Source: a virus
IMG/VR virus record: IMGVR_UViG_3300011115_000657
Coordinates: 1-32,662 of that record
Direction: 5' to 3' (one strand)
DNA length: 32,662 nucleotides
Below the pieces are notes generated by a model. That model worked only from the letters and a program-made list of their open reading frames with translations, did not search any database and was not told the origin of the DNA. The stretch's first letter is position 1. Each line of letters starts with the position of its first letter. Position numbers and translations under genes: made by a program. Shown piece by piece: positions 10,328 through 32,662 of the stretch.

Positions 10328-10720
10328 TTATGAAAACTTTAACATTTTAGCTTCTGTAATATCTAAATAACAAACCTCTTTTTCAACCCTATCATAGGAT
10401 CCAAAATTAGTAGTAGCAGGATTTTTTGAGTTGATCTCCCAAATAGGATTTATTTTAAGAAGATTAAAAATAAATATTCCTTTAGGAGTTGAATTTATAT
10501 ATAGTGGAATATCATTATGTTTTGAGCATTCCAAAATCATTGCGTTAAATTTCTTCTTTTCAAGTAAAAGAGTTGGATAATGGACCTTTCGACACTTTAA
10601 TTCAATTCTGTACTTTTTAGATGGAGAGTAACAATCCCATCTTGACATTTGATTTTTAGCTTTTAATAAATCAGGGAATAGTTGATTTTTTAATATCTGA
10701 AATAATTGTTCTTCTATCAT
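10328..10720 (-). CDS. Putative PD-(D/E)XK nuclease, first early gene
   Basis: 130 aa. Residues 25-45 hold WDC (D29) followed 11 residues later by IELKCR (E40-x-K42), then an LLEKKKFNA segment. This is the D ... (D/E)-x-K layout of small PD-(D/E)XK endonucleases, with lysines after the active site. The second half is unrecognised. It is the promoter-proximal gene of the early block, with a 5' leader of about 15 nt. A nuclease made first could attack host DNA or help break it down for nucleotides, but recombination use is equally possible. Confidence 0.6.
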   Translation of the reverse strand: MIEEQLFQILKNQLFPDLLKAKNQMSRWDCYSPSKKYRIELKCRKVHYPTLLLEKKKFNAMILECSKHNDIPLYINSTPKGIFIFNLLKINPIWEINSKNPATTNFGSYDRVEKEVCYLDITEAKMLKFS

Positions 10721-10741
10721 AAATCAAATATATAATAAATC

Positions 10742-10771
10742 CAAATATAAAATAACATATTTATTAACAAT
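10742..10771 (-). promoter_or_regulatory. Host-type promoter of the early block (module A)
   Basis: On the minus strand ATTG (10771-10768), 18 nt, TATATTTG (10749-10742). Box spacing and sequence fit the Bacteroidota housekeeping consensus. The same stretch, near-identical over about 40 bp, recurs at 32315-32344 before the sigma-like gene. A second TATATTTG at 10732-10725 has no -33 partner. Confidence 0.85.
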
Positions 10772-10784
10772 AGGATTTTTCCTA
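10771..10784. promoter_or_regulatory. Inverted repeat abutting the -33 box (module A)
   Basis: TAGGA-TTTT-TCCTA is a perfect inverted repeat touching the upstream edge of the -33 element. The matching site in module C is TAAGA-TTTT-TCTTA (32344-32357): both arms changed together, so symmetry is kept. This argues for a dimeric regulator's operator. Confidence 0.55.
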
Positions 10785-10839
10785 CTATTACTATATACTC
10801 TTTTATATATATATTTACTTTTTTTTTAAAAAATTTAGT

Positions 10840-10887
10840 AAAAAGGGGGTACCCCTATTTTTAAAGTATGTTTTTTAGGGGGGGGTA
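10840..10887 (-). terminator. G/C-run hairpin terminator, end of the lysis operon (module A)
   Basis: On the minus strand a C8-TA run pairs with TAGGGG (10857-10852), followed by TACCCCC and a T5 tract (plus-strand A at 10840-10844). The spanin stop codon (10863-10861) lies in the loop. Similar elements occur at 21971-22016 and 32441-32479. Confidence 0.7.
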
Positions 10888-16968: not shown

Positions 16969-18698
16969 TATCCTTTATAATTTGGGTGATGTCCTATATT
17001 TGGCATATCTATTGGTGCTATTTTTGACTCTGCTAATCCTGCAGGAGTTGGTTTATATCCTGCAATACTATCAACTTCTTGACTTGAAGATAATGATTTA
17101 TCTACATAAGGAGTTCCATCAGTTTTAGTTTTCAATCTATATAAATTTTCGTTCCAATAATGTGAACAAGCTACACCGCCTTTATATTTAAAAAGTGAAT
17201 AGCTTTGACCTTCGTGTCCAAAGTCTTTATTAACTCCTTGAAATGATGCCTGGTCTATATCTTCTTTTCTATATACTACTCCATTATTAGTACGTGTCAT
17301 CATTTTAACACAAAAATTTCGTGAATTAGGCTTATTGTAACGAGCAGCATATTCATATCTAACTTTATAAGTATCTTGGTCTAAATAACTTTTAGCACTT
17401 GGATTAGATTTAATTATATCAGCTAATTTTTGAAGCGTTGTTTTTTTTTCAACTATTAAATTATTTGCCCAATCTTCAATAGATATATTTTTATCTGAAT
17501 ATTCTCTTTTATCTACTAATTCCCATTCATCTGTAATTGACTCTCCTTCTAAACTATCAATATCAAAATGATCGTGTACTTCTTCACTCATTTGAACCGG
17601 TGCAATATCTTCAGGATGCATTGCATCAACTAAAGGATTTAAAGGTTTAAATGTTAAATCTAAACTAATTTTGTTATATGCTAAAATCTTGTCTATACCA
17701 TCGCAAAATTGTTCCTGATTAGGTATTACTACATTATTATCAAATAATACAAATGCGGTCTTTAATTCGTCTGCATTAGAACTAAATCCACTTGCAGATG
17801 GAATGCCAAATAATAATCCGGATGTTACACCGTGAGATAACATTATTTTAGCTCTTGCTTCATTACTCAAATACTCATATTGCTGAGCTGCATTATCTAA
17901 TCCAACTGAATCAATAGTAGTCTTTTTACTTTCTTCTGAATTAAATGATATAATTAATTTTTTACCACTTGCCCCTGTAGTTTGGCTAACTACTGAATCG
18001 TTTATAGTTCTTTGTTGATCTTCTGTTGGAATTCCATTGTTAAAGTTAATTATTTTTAACGGTGTAAATCCTGTTTCAACTAATGAGATTAAGTATTCTG
18101 AAATATCCTCCTCTAATTTTGCATAAGAAATACCACCTAAATAAGATACAGAACTAAAATATTTTTGACCAATTGTGTAATTACCAATCATTAATATCTC
18201 AAGTGTTCTATCTCCATTACCAAATGATGGTATTAATGTAGGTGGAAAATCTCTTAATTTATCCCAATTATCCGAGTAGTAATAATTCTCAATAATACCT
18301 TCTTTATTGCATTTTTGTGGTCTTAATAAATGAACCGGCATATGCTGAACATCAACAATAGTCTTTTTATTTTTAGCATAAATAACCTGTAATGCACATT
18401 GACCTAATAAATACATATCTGTAACTGCTCTTTTAGTAGTTTCTTTACTAAAAAGCATTTTCATTTGTGCATATTCATTTGGTTTACGTGCAGCATCTCT
18501 TGCATCTAATCCTTTACCAAAAATCAATTTAACGATATTATTGATAACTTGGTTATTAGTTGTAGAGTTATTATAACAATCTATCAAAAATTGATAATAA
18601 TCATTTTTATCTCCAAACTTAACCCAATCATCTTGCCTATTCTCAACCGCTTTTGGAGGATTATAAGCTTTTAATTCTATTATGTGGTTATTACTCAT
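16968..18698 (-). CDS. Portal protein with extra C-terminal domain
   Basis: 576 aa. The N-terminal 370 residues match a phage portal: conserved start (NRQDDWVKFGDKNDYYQFLIDCYNNS), a GKGL turn, YLLGQCALQVIY, HMPVHLLRP, a long central helix region and SGLLFGIPSASGFSSNADE before the crown. It would form the dodecameric DNA gate of the head. Beyond about 390 there is a further part (SRNFCVKMMTRTNNGVVYRKEDI ... FGHEGQSYSLFKYKGGVACSHYW) that I associate with C-terminal domains of Bacteroidota head proteins, not with the portal core. It lies downstream of the capsid genes rather than next to the terminase, which is unusual. Confidence 0.85.
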   Translation of the reverse strand: MSNNHIIELKAYNPPKAVENRQDDWVKFGDKNDYYQFLIDCYNNSTTNNQVINNIVKLIFGKGLDARDAARKPNEYAQMKMLFSKETTKRAVTDMYLLGQCALQVIYAKNKKTIVDVQHMPVHLLRPQKCNKEGIIENYYYSDNWDKLRDFPPTLIPSFGNGDRTLEILMIGNYTIGQKYFSSVSYLGGISYAKLEEDISEYLISLVETGFTPLKIINFNNGIPTEDQQRTINDSVVSQTTGASGKKLIISFNSEESKKTTIDSVGLDNAAQQYEYLSNEARAKIMLSHGVTSGLLFGIPSASGFSSNADELKTAFVLFDNNVVIPNQEQFCDGIDKILAYNKISLDLTFKPLNPLVDAMHPEDIAPVQMSEEVHDHFDIDSLEGESITDEWELVDKREYSDKNISIEDWANNLIVEKKTTLQKLADIIKSNPSAKSYLDQDTYKVRYEYAARYNKPNSRNFCVKMMTRTNNGVVYRKEDIDQASFQGVNKDFGHEGQSYSLFKYKGGVACSHYWNENLYRLKTKTDGTPYVDKSLSSSQEVDSIAGYKPTPAGLAESKIAPIDMPNIGHHPNYKG

Positions 18699-19020
18699 AA
18701 AATACTGTATCAGATGCAGCAGCGTTTACATATGCTCCATTATTAATTGAATATTCATCTGCAGTTTGATTAGTGCAGAAAATTTTATCTAAATATATTA
18801 TATTACCGGATATATCTTTTACCGTAAAATTATAAAAATGATTTTCAACTAAAGTAAATACAAGAGTTGCAGTTAGATAATATTCATTTTTATAAAAAGA
18901 TGGTGTTATTACAGTTTCTACTTGTGTACTTTCATTTCTCAATGTAATAGAATATGCTTCCATATTACGAGGAATAAAAGATACTTGTTGAGCTGATGTA
19001 GATTGTAATAGTTTAATCAT
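18691..19020 (-). CDS. Small structural protein, 109 aa, first gene of the portal operon
   Basis: Beta-rich (FIPRNMEAYSITLRNESTQ, YYLTATLVFTL, FTVKDISGNIIYLDKIF) with a serine/alanine-rich end; the look is that of an Ig-like or virion decoration protein. No exact family recognised. It overlaps the portal start by 8 nt. A phage-type late promoter motif ends 3 nt before its ATG, and a strong terminator lies just beyond that, so it opens a new transcription unit. Confidence 0.65.
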   Translation of the reverse strand: MIKLLQSTSAQQVSFIPRNMEAYSITLRNESTQVETVITPSFYKNEYYLTATLVFTLVENHFYNFTVKDISGNIIYLDKIFCTNQTADEYSINNGAYVNAAASDTVFYE

Positions 19021-19023
19021 ATT

Positions 19024-19053
19024 ATAATAACAATTTTTACCCTATATTGTTTC
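19024..19053 (-). promoter_or_regulatory. Phage late promoter motif, portal operon
   Basis: GAAACAA (19053-19047), 13 nt, TTGTTATTAT (19033-19024) on the minus strand, then AAT and the ATG at 19020. This is one of four sites with the same two boxes and exactly the same spacing. It sits directly after a terminator. Confidence 0.7.
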
Positions 19054-19083
19054 AAAAAAAAACCCCTATAATAAAATAGGGGT
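19054..19083 (-). terminator. Rho-independent terminator after the tail tube gene
   Basis: On the minus strand ACCCCTAT (19083-19076) pairs perfectly with ATAGGGGT (19069-19062) over a 6-nt loop, followed by a T9 tract (plus-strand A at 19054-19062). It ends the head operon and touches the next late promoter. Confidence 0.9.
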
Positions 19084-20748: not shown

Positions 20749-21294
20749 TTATTTTAAATTTTGTTTAATTAATCTGAATTTTTCGAGTGCAGTCATCTCT
20801 CTATTTACTGCTGGTTCTGGATTAGTTACAATTGCTTTAGCTCCTGCTTCTTCTAATTCCACTTTCAATGCTTCTAATTCTACTTTTAATGCTTTGTTTT
20901 CAGCTTCTAATTTTTCAACCTCAACTTTAACTTCTGCAAAAAATGTTTCTTTAGTAATTGTATCAACTACTTTTTTAATAGCTGGAGTTTCAGCAGATGC
21001 TTCAACTACAGGAGCTTCTTCTGGCATAGGAGCTTCTTCTTCAGGAGCTTCTACTGGTTTTACCTCTTTGATAATTCCTTCAACTTCTACTACTATAATC
21101 ATTCCATCAACTGTTTCATATTCTCCAATCGGAGCAGGAACAATTCCTTCAGATGTAACTATACCAACTGAATAATCAGGTTCAAATGATTCAGCTTCTA
21201 AAACGGTAATACCATCTACTAATTTCATTTGTTCTAATTTTACTTCAATTGATAAAAGTGCTTTAATTTTGTTTAATGTGTTTTTAAACTCCAT
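20749..21294 (-). CDS. Head scaffolding protein
   Basis: 181 aa. An N-terminal globular-looking part is followed by an acidic, proline- and alanine-rich linker (VEAPEEEAPMPEEAPVVEA, about 81-100) and a strong coiled coil (VEVEKLEAENKALKVELEAL, about 125-150). The end is basic (ALEKFRLIKQNLK), typical of the segment that binds capsid protein. The position between the protease and capsid genes agrees. It is expected to be made in bulk and removed by the protease during head maturation. It overlaps the protease gene by 11 nt. Confidence 0.8.
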   Translation of the reverse strand: MEFKNTLNKIKALLSIEVKLEQMKLVDGITVLEAESFEPDYSVGIVTSEGIVPAPIGEYETVDGMIIVVEVEGIIKEVKPVEAPEEEAPMPEEAPVVEASAETPAIKKVVDTITKETFFAEVKVEVEKLEAENKALKVELEALKVELEEAGAKAIVTNPEPAVNREMTALEKFRLIKQNLK

Positions 21295-21853
21295 TGATTA
21301 AATCTTTTATTTTGTTATACATTAATTCATCTTCAGACATTTCTAATTTTTCATTAAAAAATCCTTCGATTGAAAATCCTTTGATCTCACCAGATTTAAC
21401 TTTATCTTTTATATCCGGATTGTCAATTGATATAGCAACCATCCAAGTATTAATAGGATAATCAAATCCATACATAACACTCTTATCATTTACCATATCC
21501 TCTTTTAGCCACGTTTCAACAACTGTTACGCCTTCAACTTTAGACTTGTGTTGTAAGGTCGATTCCGATTGATAACCGTTTTTCATAAATTTATGTGCAG
21601 TTTTTTGGATTGTATCACCACTAAAAAATACCTGGTATATTTCTCCATCTTCTCCCATTCTGTCTATTTTCATATCCGGAATAAGAACTGCACCTAATAA
21701 TATATTTTTTTTAGATTCAATTTCTTTAAATTCAATCTTATGCTCTTTTGATAATGCAATCCAATTTTCTTGAATTGCAGGATGATCAACTAAAGAAATA
21801 GCAAACACACCGTCTTGCTCCTCATCTAAAACCAATTCAAAAACTTTCTTCAT
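21284..21853 (-). CDS. Prohead protease, XkdF-like
   Basis: 189 aa. Hallmarks in order: GVFAISLVDHPAI (15-27), LLGAVLIPDMKIDRM (52-66), STLQHKS with a likely catalytic H102, WLKEDMVNDKS, NTWMVAISI and GEIKGFSIEGFF with a likely nucleophile S161. This is the XkdF family of phage serine proteases that process the scaffold and capsid. It is first in the head operon, directly behind a late promoter motif that ends 3 nt before the ATG, so its message may lack a leader. Confidence 0.85.
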   Translation of the reverse strand: MKKVFELVLDEEQDGVFAISLVDHPAIQENWIALSKEHKIEFKEIESKKNILLGAVLIPDMKIDRMGEDGEIYQVFFSGDTIQKTAHKFMKNGYQSESTLQHKSKVEGVTVVETWLKEDMVNDKSVMYGFDYPINTWMVAISIDNPDIKDKVKSGEIKGFSIEGFFNEKLEMSEDELMYNKIKDLINGV

Positions 21854-21856
21854 ATT

Positions 21857-21886
21857 ACTATAACAATAAAACCCTGTTTTTGTTTC
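21857..21886 (-). promoter_or_regulatory. Phage late promoter motif, head operon (module B)
   Basis: GAAACAA (21886-21880), 13 nt, TTGTTATAGT (21866-21857) on the minus strand, then AAT and the ATG at 21853. Module B has this phage motif where modules A and C have a host-type promoter. Confidence 0.7.
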
Positions 21887-21970
21887 ACACTATTTTTATT
21901 TAGACTAATTCTAAATAAACATTTATACTCTTTATATATATATTTAATCTTTTTTTTTAAAAAATTTAAT

Positions 21971-22016
21971 AAAAAAGGGGTACCCCCTAAAATGAAACGT
22001 CTTTTTTAGGGGGGGT
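21971..22016 (-). terminator. G/C-run hairpin terminator after the tape measure (module B)
   Basis: CCCCCTAAAA (minus, 22013-22004) pairs perfectly over 10 bp with TTTTAGGGGG (21992-21983), followed by TACCCC and T6 (plus-strand A at 21971-21976). It begins 19 nt beyond the tape measure stop (22035). Confidence 0.8.
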
Positions 22017-27926: not shown

Positions 27927-28195
27927 TTCTTTATCATTTTAGCTTCTAATTCTGTTTTTTGTTTCTCAAAACTTAACCACGTTAAGCATTCGTGTATATT
28001 TATCCTTGTAATTTCGTCAAATCTTGTAAGGTCTCCTTGAGCAATAGCATAGATTGAACTATACCATCCCCATCTTTGCCCAAATTGCCCTGCAGAAGAA
28101 TATTCTGTACCTCCGGATCCTTCTCCAAATAAACAATCGTAGCGTTCAATAATGCGTTCCCTAAATTGTAAAAAAAAACCGTTGCACCTAAACAA
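27923..28195 (-). CDS. Second frame of the tail assembly chaperone, reached by -1 frameshift
   Basis: The frame is open from upstream of 28195 to a TGA at 27923 but holds no ATG before its last five residues; only a poor TTG (28195) could start it. It overlaps the 220-aa gene by 196 nt in the -1 frame. A T TTT TTT slippery site in the zero frame lies at 28177-28171; a slip there joins residue 164 of the first frame to LQFRERIIERYD... of this one, giving a product of about 246 aa. The part FGQRWGWYSSIYAIAQGDLTR ... CLTWLSFEKQKTELE is well formed, and its TGA overlaps the next ATG. Chaperone pairs made this way (lambda G/GT) guide tape measure and tube assembly. Confidence 0.7.
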   Translation of the reverse strand: MFRCNGFFLQFRERIIERYDCLFGEGSGGTEYSSAGQFGQRWGWYSSIYAIAQGDLTRFDEITRINIHECLTWLSFEKQKTELEAKMIKK

Positions 28196-28662
28196 ACATC
28201 TAAAGGAGCATATTTCATTACATCTCCATAAGTAACTGTTCCATTATAATCTTCAATCTCATATGTGCCATTTAAGCCATTCTTTTTAATTGGTCTATAT
28301 AACACTGCCATTGCTCTATGCATCATATCCCAATCAGTTATATAAGTATCTAAATCGGTATACTCTCCAAAAGTCATATCCTCAAGATTAGGAATAAATC
28401 CAAATTCAGTGCCTCCTAATTTAAATCTTTGGATCAACTTATGCTCCTGATTAAACATTGCACCAAGTGAAGCAGTTATATCATTTACATCTTTGTATTT
28501 TATAAGTGCAATATCTTTTAAATCAATTCCACAAAATATCTGTACCATCTTTTGGTGCAGGAACTCGGAATCTTCATTGTCTTTTGCAATCTTTAAAAAT
28601 GCCTGATATTGAGATAATTTAATCTCATTTAATTTAGTCGGGATTGTGATTTCTAACTTCAT
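28000..28662 (-). CDS. Tail assembly chaperone-type protein, first frame, 220 aa
   Basis: First gene of the tail operon. It begins MKLEITIPTKLNEIKLSQYQ and runs through IQRFKLGGTEFGFIPNLED, DWDMMHRAMAVLYRPIKKNG and APLDVCLGATVFFYNLGNAL to LKETLQDLTKLQG. The plan is known to me from tail regions of Bacteroidota prophages without a firm function. The chaperone call rests on the long -1 overlapping frame downstream and the T9 run (28170-28178) inside the gene. A phage late promoter motif ends 3 nt before the ATG. Confidence 0.72.
   Translation of the reverse strand: MKLEITIPTKLNEIKLSQYQAFLKIAKDNEDSEFLHQKMVQIFCGIDLKDIALIKYKDVNDITASLGAMFNQEHKLIQRFKLGGTEFGFIPNLEDMTFGEYTDLDTYITDWDMMHRAMAVLYRPIKKNGLNGTYEIEDYNGTVTYGDVMKYAPLDVCLGATVFFYNLGNALLNATIVYLEKDPEVQNILLQGNLGKDGDGIVQSMLLLKETLQDLTKLQG
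28170..28178 (-). other. T9 slippery run for -1 frameshifting
   Basis: On the minus strand the zero-frame codons GTT TTT TTT TAC contain a T TTT TTT heptamer, a perfect X XXX YYY slippery sequence. It is the only such heptamer between the opening of the second frame and the stop of the first. Polymerase slippage on nine T residues could produce the same fusion. Confidence 0.65.
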
Positions 28663-28665
28663 AAT

Positions 28666-28695
28666 ATAATAACAATTTTAATAAAAATTTGTTTC
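28666..28695 (-). promoter_or_regulatory. Phage late promoter motif, tail operon
   Basis: GAAACAA (28695-28689), 13 nt, TTGTTATTAT (28675-28666) on the minus strand, then ATT and the ATG at 28662. A terminator-like hairpin (28702-28731) lies immediately upstream, the same order as at 19024-19083. Confidence 0.7.
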
Positions 28696-28701
28696 ACACA
28701 A

Positions 28702-29342: not shown

Positions 29343-29495
29343 TTAGAATATTTTTATCCTTGCATTTGCTACCTCAAACATCTGCCTTAATTTCTGCACT
29401 TGTTGAAATGATCTTGGCAATGCAATCTGTACTTCTTGGCCTGTCATCAAATGTATATAACATTGAACAAAAGCAATCATATAAGAATAGTTCAT
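29343..29495 (-). CDS. Small protein, 50 aa, after the large terminase
   Basis: MNYSYMIAFVQCYIHLMTGQ, then EVQIALPRSFQQVQKLRQMF and a basic end. Its ATG shares a base with the terminase TAA (TAATG at 29495). Mostly helical; possibly a packaging accessory protein, but no motif is known. Confidence 0.6.
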   Translation of the reverse strand: MNYSYMIAFVQCYIHLMTGQEVQIALPRSFQQVQKLRQMFEVANARIKIF

Positions 29496-30706
29496 TAGTA
29501 AATGTGGTATTTGCCCCTTTCAGGATTGCTTAAATTAAAAAATACATTATATCTTATCGCATCAATTGCGTGGTTCCAATTATCAATAACCAATCCGGAC
29601 TTCTTATCCGAGTAAACATAATTATTAAACTCTTTTGCAATATTAGAACTGCTTTCATCAACTATAATAGTATAGTCTTGCATTAGTGCCAATCCTGCAG
29701 TTATGCTCCCGGGTCCTTTAGCAGTTGGTATTATATTACATCCATTCGCTGACATTTCTGCAATTAATCTTGGTTCTGCACTATCAGCTACTATAAGCCT
29801 TTCTCTTGCAATATTTTTATTATAGAATACTATTTCACTTGTGGTTAGTTTTGGCTTGTATAAATGTTCTTTAACATAGATTATCTTTTTAGTTTTATCT
29901 ATTGCAACCTCAACTAATGTAGTCGGATCAATACTAAATCCATAATCCTGCCCAAATGATGTTTGCAAGTTATCCGGATTAAACTCTCCAAATCTCCAAT
30001 TAGTAAATACTACACCTTCAGCCTTATCTAACCATCCACCTAAAATAACGTGCTTATACTTTTTAGGATTTAATTCTTTTATTTTCTCAATTTCATTTAT
30101 GAATGATTGGTCCAGATTATCTATATTGTCCTGATAGGTTGTATGGATATAAGTAACATTTCCTTTTGTACCATTAAAGCCTTCAGTAATTCCTTCACTT
30201 TCAAAAAACCTTTTATAAATCCAATGCTCCTTTGTGGCCGGATTTAATATAAGTACTATTCTATTTTGAACTCCTTTCTGTCTAATAGATAAATTAATCT
30301 TATCAAATATATCTTCATCTACTAACTCCTCTGCTTCATCTAATATCCAGGTTGTAACTCCTTGTAATGATTTAAGATTTGCAGTTTGATCTCCGGAGCT
30401 TGTTTTGATACCTTTGAAAATTATATCTGTTCCTGACTTCTTATTCCTTATTTCGCCTTTATTAACTTCGAATAAATCTCCAGCCTCCATCAAATCAATT
30501 TTCTCTTGGAACTCTGGAATTATTGATAGATGTGCAGATGTCATTGTCTGCCTTGTAAATAATATCTTATGCCCTGATTGAAATGACAAAGTCGATGCCA
30601 TAGCACCGACCTCAAAACTCTTTCCACTTCCTCTACCTCCGGTAACTATGAAATATCTTGTTTCATTTTCATAAAGTGGTAAGTATTTTGAATTAAGATT
30701 TAGCAT
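29495..30706 (-). CDS. terL: Terminase large subunit (PBSX/Terminase_3 type)
   Basis: 403 aa, full length for this type. The ATPase part shows Walker A GGRGSGKS (23-30), Walker B ILDEAEE (121-127) and the coupling motif region LILNPAT (152-158). The nuclease part shows acidic residues in the usual RNase H-like order: GQDYGFSIDP (D254), IVADSAEP (D308) and NHAIDAIRY near the C-terminus. It pumps DNA into the prohead through the portal and makes the packaging cut. In this genome it is separated from the portal by the whole tail block. It overlaps the 59-aa gene upstream by 14 nt. Confidence 0.95.
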   Translation of the reverse strand: MLNLNSKYLPLYENETRYFIVTGGRGSGKSFEVGAMASTLSFQSGHKILFTRQTMTSAHLSIIPEFQEKIDLMEAGDLFEVNKGEIRNKKSGTDIIFKGIKTSSGDQTANLKSLQGVTTWILDEAEELVDEDIFDKINLSIRQKGVQNRIVLILNPATKEHWIYKRFFESEGITEGFNGTKGNVTYIHTTYQDNIDNLDQSFINEIEKIKELNPKKYKHVILGGWLDKAEGVVFTNWRFGEFNPDNLQTSFGQDYGFSIDPTTLVEVAIDKTKKIIYVKEHLYKPKLTTSEIVFYNKNIARERLIVADSAEPRLIAEMSANGCNIIPTAKGPGSITAGLALMQDYTIIVDESSSNIAKEFNNYVYSDKKSGLVIDNWNHAIDAIRYNVFFNLSNPERGKYHIY

Positions 30707-30914: not shown

Positions 30915-31184
30915 TTACTTAAATTTAATAACATCTTTTAAATCAAAGTCATTTACATTAAGATTTGTATTTTGATCTATAACTTGTTTAGGCATTCCAT
31001 ATCGATATTGTAACCAAGTCTTAATAGCATTTGTATCTCCTTTGCTAACCTTTTCTGCTAAAGCTGCCCATACTTCTTCAGGTACTGCAATAGCATCCAT
31101 AGACTCAATAAGTGTTATTTCATCTATCTTTGGTTTTCTTCCTGCTCCTGGTCTTGCACCACCCATTTTTTTAATTTCTTCCAT
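30915..31184 (-). CDS. terS: Terminase small subunit
   Basis: I use the ATG at 31184; the upstream TTG at 31205 is weaker, and the ATG at 31166 (MGGARPGAGRKPK) is a good alternative. The glycine/arginine-rich start GGARPGAGRKPK is typical of DNA-binding small terminase subunits in Bacteroidota phages. It is followed by a helical domain (VPEEVWAALAEKVSKGDTNA) and WLQYRYGMPKQ. It recognises phage DNA and hands it to the large subunit, whose gene lies 209 nt further on. Length about 89 aa, at the short end for the family. Confidence 0.75.
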   Translation of the reverse strand: MEEIKKMGGARPGAGRKPKIDEITLIESMDAIAVPEEVWAALAEKVSKGDTNAIKTWLQYRYGMPKQVIDQNTNLNVNDFDLKDVIKFK

Positions 31185-31205
31185 TGAAAAAATTTGATTA
31201 TTCAA

Positions 31206-31631
31206 TTATATTAATTTACCAACTTGCCCCAATGCTTTTATCACATCGGTATTATTGTCGTAGTGTTTATCTATTTTTAATTCTTTTATCTTTTTAATTT
31301 TCTCTGCATTAGATCCGGTTGCGTAAACTTTGTCCGGAGATATTCCTAATCGTCTTGCAGTTCCAATCATTCCTTGTTTTGAATGTCTTGCAGAAATAAT
31401 ATATAGGTTATCTCCATCATTAATTAGCTTCTGTGCTAAATCAAAACCTTTTTTAGTTGATAATGTACCATCATAATCAAAACTAATCTTTAAACCTGCT
31501 AATAAGAATGCTGACTCACAAACTGCATATCTTTGTTCGGTATCATATTCAGATTTCATTTTTTCATCTGACATACACCTTTCTAAAAATTTGTCTTTAT
31601 GTTCTCCAGAATTAGGCTTTGGTATCGGCAT
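31206..31631 (-). CDS. Fusion of a phage cysteine/QR-type domain with a HAD-like phosphatase domain
   Basis: 141 aa in two parts. Residues 1-42 (MPIPKPNSGEHKDKFLERCM, then SDEKMKSEYDTEQRYAVCES) match a short module that in other phages usually begins head or protease proteins. Residues 47-141 look like a small HAD hydrolase: FDYDGTLS (D52, D54), IISARHS (S80), GSNAEKIKKI (K111) and DKHYDNNTD (D121, D125). HAD enzymes remove phosphate from small molecules, polynucleotide 3' ends or proteins; a polynucleotide or nucleotide substrate is likely in a phage but unproven. It is the second gene behind a late promoter motif, in the terminase operon. Confidence 0.75.
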   Translation of the reverse strand: MPIPKPNSGEHKDKFLERCMSDEKMKSEYDTEQRYAVCESAFLLAGLKISFDYDGTLSTKKGFDLAQKLINDGDNLYIISARHSKQGMIGTARRLGISPDKVYATGSNAEKIKKIKELKIDKHYDNNTDVIKALGQVGKLI

Positions 31632-31833
31632 CTTTTACTTTTGTTTTTGGTGCTTCAGCAAATGTAGATAATATATCTGTATAAGTTCTCCATTGTGAAT
31701 CGTTATCATTTGCATCAACCAAACCTCCTACTTCTTCTTTATATACTTCAGCTAATATAATTTTTTGACCTAATGTTAATTCCTTTTTATTATTGAAATG
31801 ATTATTGATTATTTCTTGATTTTCTTTTTTCAT
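31612..31833 (-). CDS. Hypothetical protein, 73 aa, first gene of the packaging operon
   Basis: Acidic and helical (MKKENQEIINNHFNNKKELT, GQKIILAEVYKEEVGGLVDA), ending in a charged tail. No motif. It overlaps the HAD fusion gene by 20 nt. A late promoter motif lies 17 nt upstream of its ATG, overlapping the end of the sigma-like gene. Confidence 0.65.
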   Translation of the reverse strand: MKKENQEIINNHFNNKKELTLGQKIILAEVYKEEVGGLVDANDNDSQWRTYTDILSTFAEAPKTKVKDADTKA

Positions 31834-31850: not shown

Positions 31851-31880
31851 ATTATAACAAATTAATCCTTAATTTGTTTC
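31851..31880 (-). promoter_or_regulatory. Phage late promoter motif, packaging operon
   Basis: GAAACAA (31880-31874), 13 nt, TTGTTATAAT (31860-31851) on the minus strand. It overlaps the last codons of the sigma-like gene and lies 17 nt before the ATG at 31833, the only one of the four motifs not set 3 nt from its start codon. Confidence 0.68.
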
Positions 31881-32293
31881 AAACGTTCTTTGAGTTCTTT
31901 CAGTGTTCTATAAACCCAGTTATAATTGTAGTGATATTTTTTAGCAAATTTGCGAAGGGATAATTCTTCTTCGATATATTTTAAATAGAATAACTTTTCA
32001 TCCCAAGTCCAATTATCTAAAGTAAATAATACATCTGTTATATCTGTTGTAGTTGATGGTTCAATATCTTCAGCATCCAAGTTATCATAAAACGGAATAG
32101 TATCTAATTTCCTTTTGTTATGCATATTCATACATATTGAATGCAAGGTAAAATAAAAATACGATTCGTTAATATTTTCTTTACCGTATATTTTTAGATA
32201 AGCATCCTGTACTGCATCCTCTGGGAAATCTGTAATACCAAATGAATATGCTAATCCAATCCAGTACTTGTGCTTTTTATATATCTCATCCAT
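31862..32293 (-). CDS. Sigma-70 family (ECF-like) RNA polymerase sigma factor
   Basis: I start it at the ATG at 32293 (MDEIYKKHKYW, 143 aa). An in-frame TTG at 32317 falls in the promoter's -7 box and cannot lie in the message. The N-terminal part resembles sigma region 2 (FPEDAVQDAYLKIYG, then SYFYFTLHSICMNMHNKRKL), which binds core polymerase and the -10 element. A divided acidic linker leads to a region 4-like helix-turn-helix (WDEKLFYLKYIEEELSLRKF, then NYNWVYRTLKELKERLKQ), which would contact the -35 element. It has a host-type promoter, and a repeated late promoter motif begins inside its own 3' end. The match is clear in pattern but weak in detail, so a terminase-like or other HTH protein is not excluded. 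Confidence 0.65.
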   Translation of the reverse strand: MDEIYKKHKYWIGLAYSFGITDFPEDAVQDAYLKIYGKENINESYFYFTLHSICMNMHNKRKLDTIPFYDNLDAEDIEPSTTTDITDVLFTLDNWTWDEKLFYLKYIEEELSLRKFAKKYHYNYNWVYRTLKELKERLKQIKD

Positions 32294-32314
32294 AATGTAA
32301 ATATAGTATAAATC

Positions 32315-32344
32315 CAAATATAAAATAACATATTTATTAACAAT
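32315..32344 (-). promoter_or_regulatory. Host-type promoter of the sigma-like gene (module C)
   Basis: ATTG (32344-32341), 18 nt, TATATTTG (32322-32315) on the minus strand, near-identical over about 40 bp to the early promoter at 10742-10771. The leader to the ATG at 32293 is only about 15 nt. Confidence 0.85.
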
Positions 32345-32357
32345 AAGATTTTTCTTA
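32344..32357. promoter_or_regulatory. Inverted repeat abutting the -33 box (module C)
   Basis: TAAGA-TTTT-TCTTA, a perfect inverted repeat at the same place as TAGGA-TTTT-TCCTA in module A (10771-10784). The paired differences keep the symmetry, as expected of a shared operator. Confidence 0.55.
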
Positions 32358-32440
32358 CTATTACTTTATACTACTTTTATATATATATATATATTTTTTT
32401 TTTAAAAATTTAAAATATATATAATAATTTACTTTTTTGA

Positions 32441-32479
32441 CCCCCCCCCTATTTTCAAATCACTTTTTTAGGGGGGGGT
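32441..32479 (-). other. G8/C9 hairpin at the end of the early block (module C)
   Basis: TAGGGGGGGG and CCCCCCCCTA form a perfect 10-bp stem over a loop of about 17 nt, 38 nt beyond the stop of the HTH gene (32517). Unlike modules A and B, no T tract follows on the minus strand, so it may not terminate on its own. The rest of 32294-32516 is AT-rich promoter and spacer sequence with no gene. Confidence 0.6.
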
Positions 32480-32516: not shown

Positions 32517-32662
32517 TTAAACTAAATTTTTTAATATTTCATAATCTCTAAATGTAAAGTTTGGCATTGGTTTATCCCATAACTTATTCCTATTATCTTT
32601 TTTAAGAGTTTCTATAATATCTGTATAGTGCCATCTTCTTTTAGGATGTGGTATCATATCTA
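32517..32662 (-). CDS. Second copy of the 3' part of the HTH gene (circle join)
   Basis: Bases 32535-32517 hold the last codons and TAA of the 169-aa protein that starts at 491. Bases 32536-32662 repeat 1-127. It is not a separate gene; it is drawn here because the linear window splits the frame. Confidence 0.9.
   Translation of the reverse strand, partial: DMIPHPKRRWHYTDIIETLKKDNRNKLWDKPMPNFTFRDYEILKNLV
32536..32662. repeat. Terminal direct repeat, right copy
   Basis: Identical to bases 1-127. On the circle base 32535 is followed by base 1. Confidence 0.95.

Follow-up and report, generated by a model that had tools for sequence, protein, structure and literature searches.

An ECF-Type Sigma Factor and Its Probable Late Promoters as a Candidate Host-to-Phage Sigma Cascade in Bacteroidota Phages

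Introduction

A short gene in a viral genome of 32 kb raises two questions at once: which protein turns the host's RNA polymerase to the late genes of this phage, and what brings that protein into play? The gene lies in a stretch of 32,662 nt (IMG/VR record IMGVR_UViG_3300011115_000657; hereafter, the window), and an earlier note, made from the sequence alone, had proposed that its product is an ECF-like sigma factor that is expressed from a host-type promoter and reads a late motif. Sigma switches in phages are textbook biology, and phage-coded sigma factors or analogues for late genes, like SPO1 gp28 and T4 gp55, are familiar examples. Phage sigmas are also discussed in PMC9429907.

Here, we argue that the window very probably holds a host-to-phage sigma cascade, in which an ECF-type phage sigma would act at its own cognate late promoters. 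The argument draws on four things that can be read from sequence: the homology and fold of the sigma, promoter motifs with a fixed geometry, the co-occurrence of the two throughout a family of phages, and the covariation between them. The features on which it turns are collected in Table 1.

Table 1. Positions in the window of the sigma gene, the promoters and the other features discussed
Feature	Position	Strand	Remarks
ECF-like sigma factor gene	31862..32293	minus	143 aa + stop; ATG 32293, stop 31862
Codon of N56 (region 2.4; aligned to SigH N92)	32126..32128	minus	rank 1 of 144 columns for -10 base 2
Codon of N59 (region 2.4, one helical turn past N56)	32117..32119	minus	rank 1 of 144 columns for -10 base 1
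Host (Bacteroidota housekeeping sigma)-type promoter TTG-N18-TATATTTG before sigma gene	32315..32343	minus	largely kept in relatives
Identical host-type promoter before early/replication operon	10742..10770	minus	inside 87-nt duplication D3
C/G-run hairpin + A/T tract between early operon end and sigma promoter	32377..32478	minus	repeats D2, D4
Same hairpin/tract module closing first late block	21932..22015	minus	repeats D2, D4; terminator scan
Third C/G-run hairpin + A/T-tract module	10801-10884		at block boundary
Late motif 1	31854-31881	minus	precedes ORF 31612-31833 and TerL cluster; leadered, 26 nt from -10 to ATG
Late motif 2	28669-28696	minus	-10 exactly 12 nt before ATG of ORF 28000-28662
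Late motif 3	21860-21887	minus	-10 exactly 12 nt before ATG of ORF 21284-21853
Late motif 4	19027-19054	minus	-10 exactly 12 nt before ATG of ORF 18691-19020
Conserved late gene	28000..28662	minus	orthologous promoter used for covariation
Terminase large subunit (TerL)	29495..30706	minus	Pfam Terminase_3 E=1.6e-35; behind late motif 1; bait for relatives

A Predicted Two-Domain Sigma Factor

The open reading frame is real, and the two parts that the earlier note had seen in its product are both found: a region 2 of roughly residues 1-64 and a region 4 of roughly residues 86-142, joined by a linker (~65-85). How safe is this assignment? Used alone, the protein returned nothing usable from Pfam, the PDB or a phage collection, its one Pfam match being to an Mga HTH and not to a sigma family. 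This dead end was overcome by reaching relatives of the sigma by way of TerL. A profile built from 34 such relatives has B. subtilis SigW as its top match in the PDB (E=4.9e-6), in an alignment spanning both domains, followed by the 87-aa sigma fragment 1h3l, SigE, a Fusobacterium sigma-H and SigL. The NCBIfam model sigma70-ECF (TIGR02937) matches 33 of the 34 (best 1e-13) and aligns with residues 21-140 of the window protein itself (E=1.6e-4), at a score of 21.4 bits that falls below the curated cut-off of 42.9, which is a score threshold and not a biological feature. Region 2 is also recognised by Pfam Sigma70_r2 in 23 of the relatives (best 8.7e-8) and by profile matches to SigW, SigR and SigE; for region 4, there are the SigW alignment, which continues to the C-terminus, the TIGR02937 alignment to residue 140 and a Foldseek match to 2o8x (TMt 0.68). 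PHROG 1740, "RNA polymerase sigma factor," is matched by 18 of the 34.

Structure prediction gave a fold that is ECF sigma-like and not something unrelated. The AF2 model (pLDDT 81, pTM 0.42) consists of two helical domains and, between them, a linker of low confidence (73-80); a loose connection of the domains probably accounts for the low pTM. Nearly all of the top Foldseek matches are ECF sigmas (SigH, SigE, AlgU, SigL and SigW), with probabilities near 1 and modest E-values. The match at rank 4 is the chain 9n9q_C, which belongs to an RNA-guided transcription complex from 2025.

We assign the protein to the sigmas because NCBIfam, the family profiles and the fold agree, and not on the strength of Pfam with a single sequence. 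With 143 aa and two domains only, lacking regions 1.1 and 3, the protein has the build of an ECF sigma (~140-190 aa). By homology and fold, then, it is a minimal two-domain ECF-type (group 4) sigma, predicted to bind core polymerase and to start transcription. Neither of the adjoining genes (31612-31833 and 31206-31631) matched an anti-sigma. A cognate anti-sigma is common for ECF (group 4) sigmas, not universal.

The Late Motif and Its Geometry

What might such a sigma read? The motif TGAAACAA-N13-TTGTTAT is present in exactly four perfect copies in the window, all on the minus strand, which is the sense strand here, and all lying in intergenic DNA or at its border. The plus strand of the window has none, and allowing one or two mismatches adds no further copies; the dinucleotide-shuffled window holds a mean of 0.58 matches even with 2 mismatches allowed. 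Two full-length relatives have exactly four copies each, and a reversed control pattern has 0. In its AAC-type -35, its spacer of ~16 nt and its CGT-type -10, of which the window's TGTT is a variant, the motif looks like a promoter of the ECF type. The first copy does lie in the 3' end of the sigma gene, as had been claimed, with its -35 inside the reading frame and its -10 past the stop.

The fixed spacing of three of these motifs from a start codon invites a simple calculation. M. tuberculosis SigH has a -10 numbered G-11 T-10 T-9 (PMC6411747); counted in the same way, the late -10 element opens at -12 and the A of the ATG becomes +1, and therefore, leaderless mRNAs are predicted. This geometry is seen at 3 of the 4 late promoters in the window, motif 1 being leadered. 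The mRNAs from these three are thus probably leaderless and start at or adjoining the A of the ATG, although both the start sites and leaderless translation are things that we infer. In the family as a whole (see below), 117 of 125 accepted sites have a -10 that begins exactly 12 nt ahead of the ATG, and in the isolated Nonlabens phage P12024S, each of six sites precedes, by 11-12 nt, a CDS start that had been annotated independently. The mRNAs of F. johnsoniae are mostly leadered (PMC6847099).

Might the protein instead be a TerS-like, DNA-binding packaging protein and the motifs sites of packaging or replication? Its gene is close to TerL, which would suit that role, but the motifs are strand-specific and keep a fixed distance from start codons, the protein has a two-domain ECF match, and a small gene still nearer to TerL (30915-31205) has a weak small-terminase PHROG match of its own. 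Homology and fold disfavour this packaging role, and we find it barely credible.

A Pairing Found Throughout a Family

The same two elements, a sigma and a motif of ECF-like design, are found together in the relatives that were collected through the terminase. Most of these encode a homolog of the window sigma (usually, among the loci of the first set, at one to a few kilobases upstream of TerL), and most have (A)ACAA-N13/14-CGTT before one orthologous gene; this gene, which lies behind TerL, has a promoter in nearly every lineage. In the first set of loci, AACAA-N14-CGTT was counted 49 times in the sense direction vs. 8 times in antisense, and other gaps gave mostly 4-15. Untargeted dyad counting made the motifs of Nonlabens and of L060/L063 visible and was too noisy for most loci.

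Two cases show how closely sigma and motif keep company. Contig L115 has the motif but lacks a sigma near TerL; its homolog was later located in another part of the contig (E 3.5e-42). In Riemerella phage RAP44, the TerL of which is ~49% identical, the full record yielded no sigma homolog, and a scan of a 17-kb locus yielded no AACAA-N13/N14-[CTA]GTT site. A pair of sigma and late motif, with letters that change together (see below), appears to be common to dozens of related viruses.

Two side observations belong with this survey. In L085, L092 and L093, a clade in which the sigma is more divergent and farther from TerL, another conserved motif, TTTAGCAAA...TTTATATATTAAAG, stands upstream of the MKFEKITI ORF, which is the same promoter-bearing gene. 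Also, the TerL of Shigella phage Henu10 (OQ791282.1) matches the TerLs of Riemerella phages, with the same identity and record position as Riemerella phage ON933637.1, and the host label of Henu10 may be wrong.

Covariation Between Sigma and Promoter

The assignment of the motif to the sigma rests in part on covariation. In a run for which sites were chosen blind to bases 1 and 2 of the -10, residue 56 is the best of 144 columns for base 2 (FWER 0.042) and residue 59 the best of 144 for base 1 (FWER 0.083), with 27 clusters in each case; the corrected significance is modest. A curated set of 23 clusters has residues 59 and 56 on top as well. The two residues were not on top in a strict fixed-position set, uncurated and with non-sites included, or in an expanded automatic set without register control, which let in mis-registered sites. 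The site filter was fixed after the unfiltered run had failed, so the p-values need to be read accordingly.

Close relatives allow the same comparison to be made almost letter by letter. The window and its close kin have N56/N59 with TGTT, and sister lineages have D56/R59 with CGTT. In L009-L011, the region 2.4 helix is DSFFGYVVRSVCIDMIRKKK where the window has ESYFYFTLHSICMNMHNKRK, and the two of them with visible promoters have CGTT, the -35 being unchanged. The exchange recurs independently in L077-L080 and L082 (NLHNK, TGTT) vs. L066/L067 (DLSRV, CGTT); L062/L071 have D56/M56 with CGTT/CATT, and L157/L148 have D56/N56 with CGTT/TGTT. Residue 56 differs in 4 of 4 close-relative contrasts, and the same is true of columns 55 and 58 but of no other.

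Is residue 56 where a -10 reader ought to be? In the profile alignment to chain 1h3l, the family's Asp/Asn 56 falls on the Asn of ...TNTFINSYRKKQ. The residues named for SigH (W81, I85, N88, I91, N92, Y94 and Q98; PMC6411747) match this stretch, and the Asn is therefore the counterpart of SigH N92, which contacts the -11 base pair in the solved complex (PMC6411747). That base pair corresponds to base 2 of the late-motif -10.

The code is not a tidy one. L006 (L006:89-517 and L006:2945-2976) has the N56/N59 helix, yet its promoters are CGTT. It is a mosaic, with a helix closest to L017 and the surroundings of its second promoter closest to L019/L009, and it is possibly a recent recombinant or a chimeric assembly; it is a counterexample nonetheless. 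R59 is found with AGTT in two lineages (L068 and L189) and K59 with C, A or T at base 1, and residue 59 is therefore not the sole determinant of that base. A simple rule, in which N59 means T and R59 means C, is too strong given R59 with A in those two lineages and an effect of residue 56 on base 1 as well.

Could the protein act without being a complete sigma, as an ECF-like DNA-binding activator or appropriator that brings the host holoenzyme to the late motifs? Phage late regulators with a region-4-like domain alone exist, the window sequence is very divergent, and the Mga HTH is all that Pfam recognises in it on its own. However, regions 2 and 4 are both there, the motif has the -35/-10 geometry of ECF promoters in place of the host's TAnnTTTG, and the residues that covary fall in region 2.4, which is the -10 reader of true sigmas; we consider an activator of this kind unlikely. 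Bacteroidota hosts also have many ECF sigmas with related promoters, and one of these, or another phage protein, might read the motif while the phage sigma serves something else. Against this stands the behaviour of close relatives, in which motif variants track residues of the phage's own sigma, together with L115, where the motif led to a sigma elsewhere in the contig, and RAP44, which lacks the sigma and, over the 17 kb scanned, the motif. A reader from the host, or another from the phage, is on these grounds very unlikely. Co-occurrence, the joint absence in RAP44 and covariation all favour the original proposal that the phage sigma would be the reader of the late motif.

Host-Type Promoters and Genome Blocks

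If the sigma opens the late genes, what opens the gene of the sigma? The TTG-N18-TATATTTG upstream of it fits the housekeeping consensus of Bacteroidota, TTTG/TANNTTTG (PMC6847099), and the earlier note was right that this promoter is held in common with the early operon: both copies have the same 29 bp, and the 87-nt duplication around them is 89% identical. In both copies of the duplication (10718-10804 and 32291-32377), there is a short palindrome just upstream of the TTG (TAGGA-TTTT-TCCTA / TAAGA-TTTT-TCTTA), the arms of which differ between the copies but change in concert. It is possibly an operator for an early regulator.

The genome is laid out in blocks, which we label early or late from their gene content. 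Two host-type promoters stand before the sigma gene and the replication operon, and four late promoters stand before genes from packaging, head and tail onwards; in other words, the layout of a phage switch, with a sigma behind a host-type promoter and putative cognate promoters upstream of structural genes, can be traced in the sequence. The three hairpin/tract modules at block boundaries are probably terminators, with uneven folding support (the one before the sigma promoter folds at -21.3 kcal/mol, with a z of only -1.45). Positions 1-127 are an exact repeat of 32536-32662; the map is therefore circular, and the window looks like a complete, circularly assembled genome.

Discussion

How would these parts work together? 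In the cascade that we propose, host RNA polymerase with its housekeeping sigma would start at the two near-identical host-type promoters and so transcribe the replication operon (from 10720 downwards) and the phage sigma gene (from 32293). The two-domain ECF-like sigma would then join the host core polymerase, its region 4 reading (TG)AAACAA at the -35 and its region 2.4 helix (N56 and N59) reading the double-stranded part of the -10, the TG in TGTT. The resulting holoenzyme would start at the four late promoters and express the packaging, head, tail and probably lysis genes, three of these promoters starting at or adjoining the A of the ATG and giving leaderless mRNAs. The timing of these steps and the binding to core polymerase are what we infer from this arrangement, and comparative evidence favours the compact switch that the earlier note had imagined.

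Parts of this cascade resemble known systems. B. subtilis SigW (PDB 5wuq) is the best profile match over both domains and has the same two-domain architecture. The promoter logic of SigW, TGAAAC-N16-CGTA, resembles TGAAAC-N16-[CT]GTT here. SigW is, however, chromosomal, with an anti-sigma (RsiW) and a stress regulon, whereas the window sigma is phage-borne, driven by a host promoter, without a recognised anti-sigma and with TGTT as its presumed -10. With SPO1 gp28 and T4 gp55, the likeness is that of a phage-coded sigma that turns host polymerase to late genes, and the differences are the ECF type, the ECF promoter geometry and the 32-kb genome. M. tuberculosis SigH (PMC6411747) is alike in fold, in its G-11 T-10 T-9 and in the N92 contact, whose counterpart here is the covarying residue 56, and unlike in its -35 (GGAAYA), its spacing and its biology. 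The Nonlabens (Persicivirga) phages P12024S/L have a TerL 62% identical to that of the window, a sigma homolog near it (P12024S_33) and, in P12024S, six AAACAA-N14/15-CGTTA sites; there, the sigma follows replication-type genes without a block of its own, and the -10 is CGTTA. The record of P12024S_33 carries a note of Sigma-70 region 2, calls the product hypothetical and annotates no promoter pairing.

What, then, is new? In the searchable open-licence literature, we found no description of a phage sigma of the ECF type for which a cognate late promoter had been identified, and none of such a pair in any Bacteroidota phage. For the ECF sigmas of bacteria, a residue-to-base code is already in print, as noted in PMC8103513, and the code itself is therefore not new; its apparent presence within a phage family is, as far as searchable open-licence papers go. 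The ECF type, the Bacteroidota setting, the family-wide pairing, the exchange of helices and the probable leaderless late mRNAs are what would set this cascade apart.

For the many uncultured Bacteroidota phages, the sigma-promoter pair offers a way to mark late promoters, with predicted start sites, from sequence. The natural variants, with their close-relative contrasts, are material for testing the ECF residue-to-base code (PMC8103513), and if the 12-nt spacing does mean leaderless mRNAs, it raises a question about late translation in hosts that are mostly leadered (PMC6847099). One might go further and imagine that, across the whole Bacteroidota phage family, -10 specificity keeps shifting by point change or recombination of one region 2.4 helix, that every late promoter changes in step and that the late mRNAs are leaderless, starting from the ATG in mostly leadered hosts. 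We offer this larger picture tentatively, thinking it somewhat more likely to be wrong than right. If it is true, private sigma-promoter codes could stop phages from turning on one another's late genes during co-infection.
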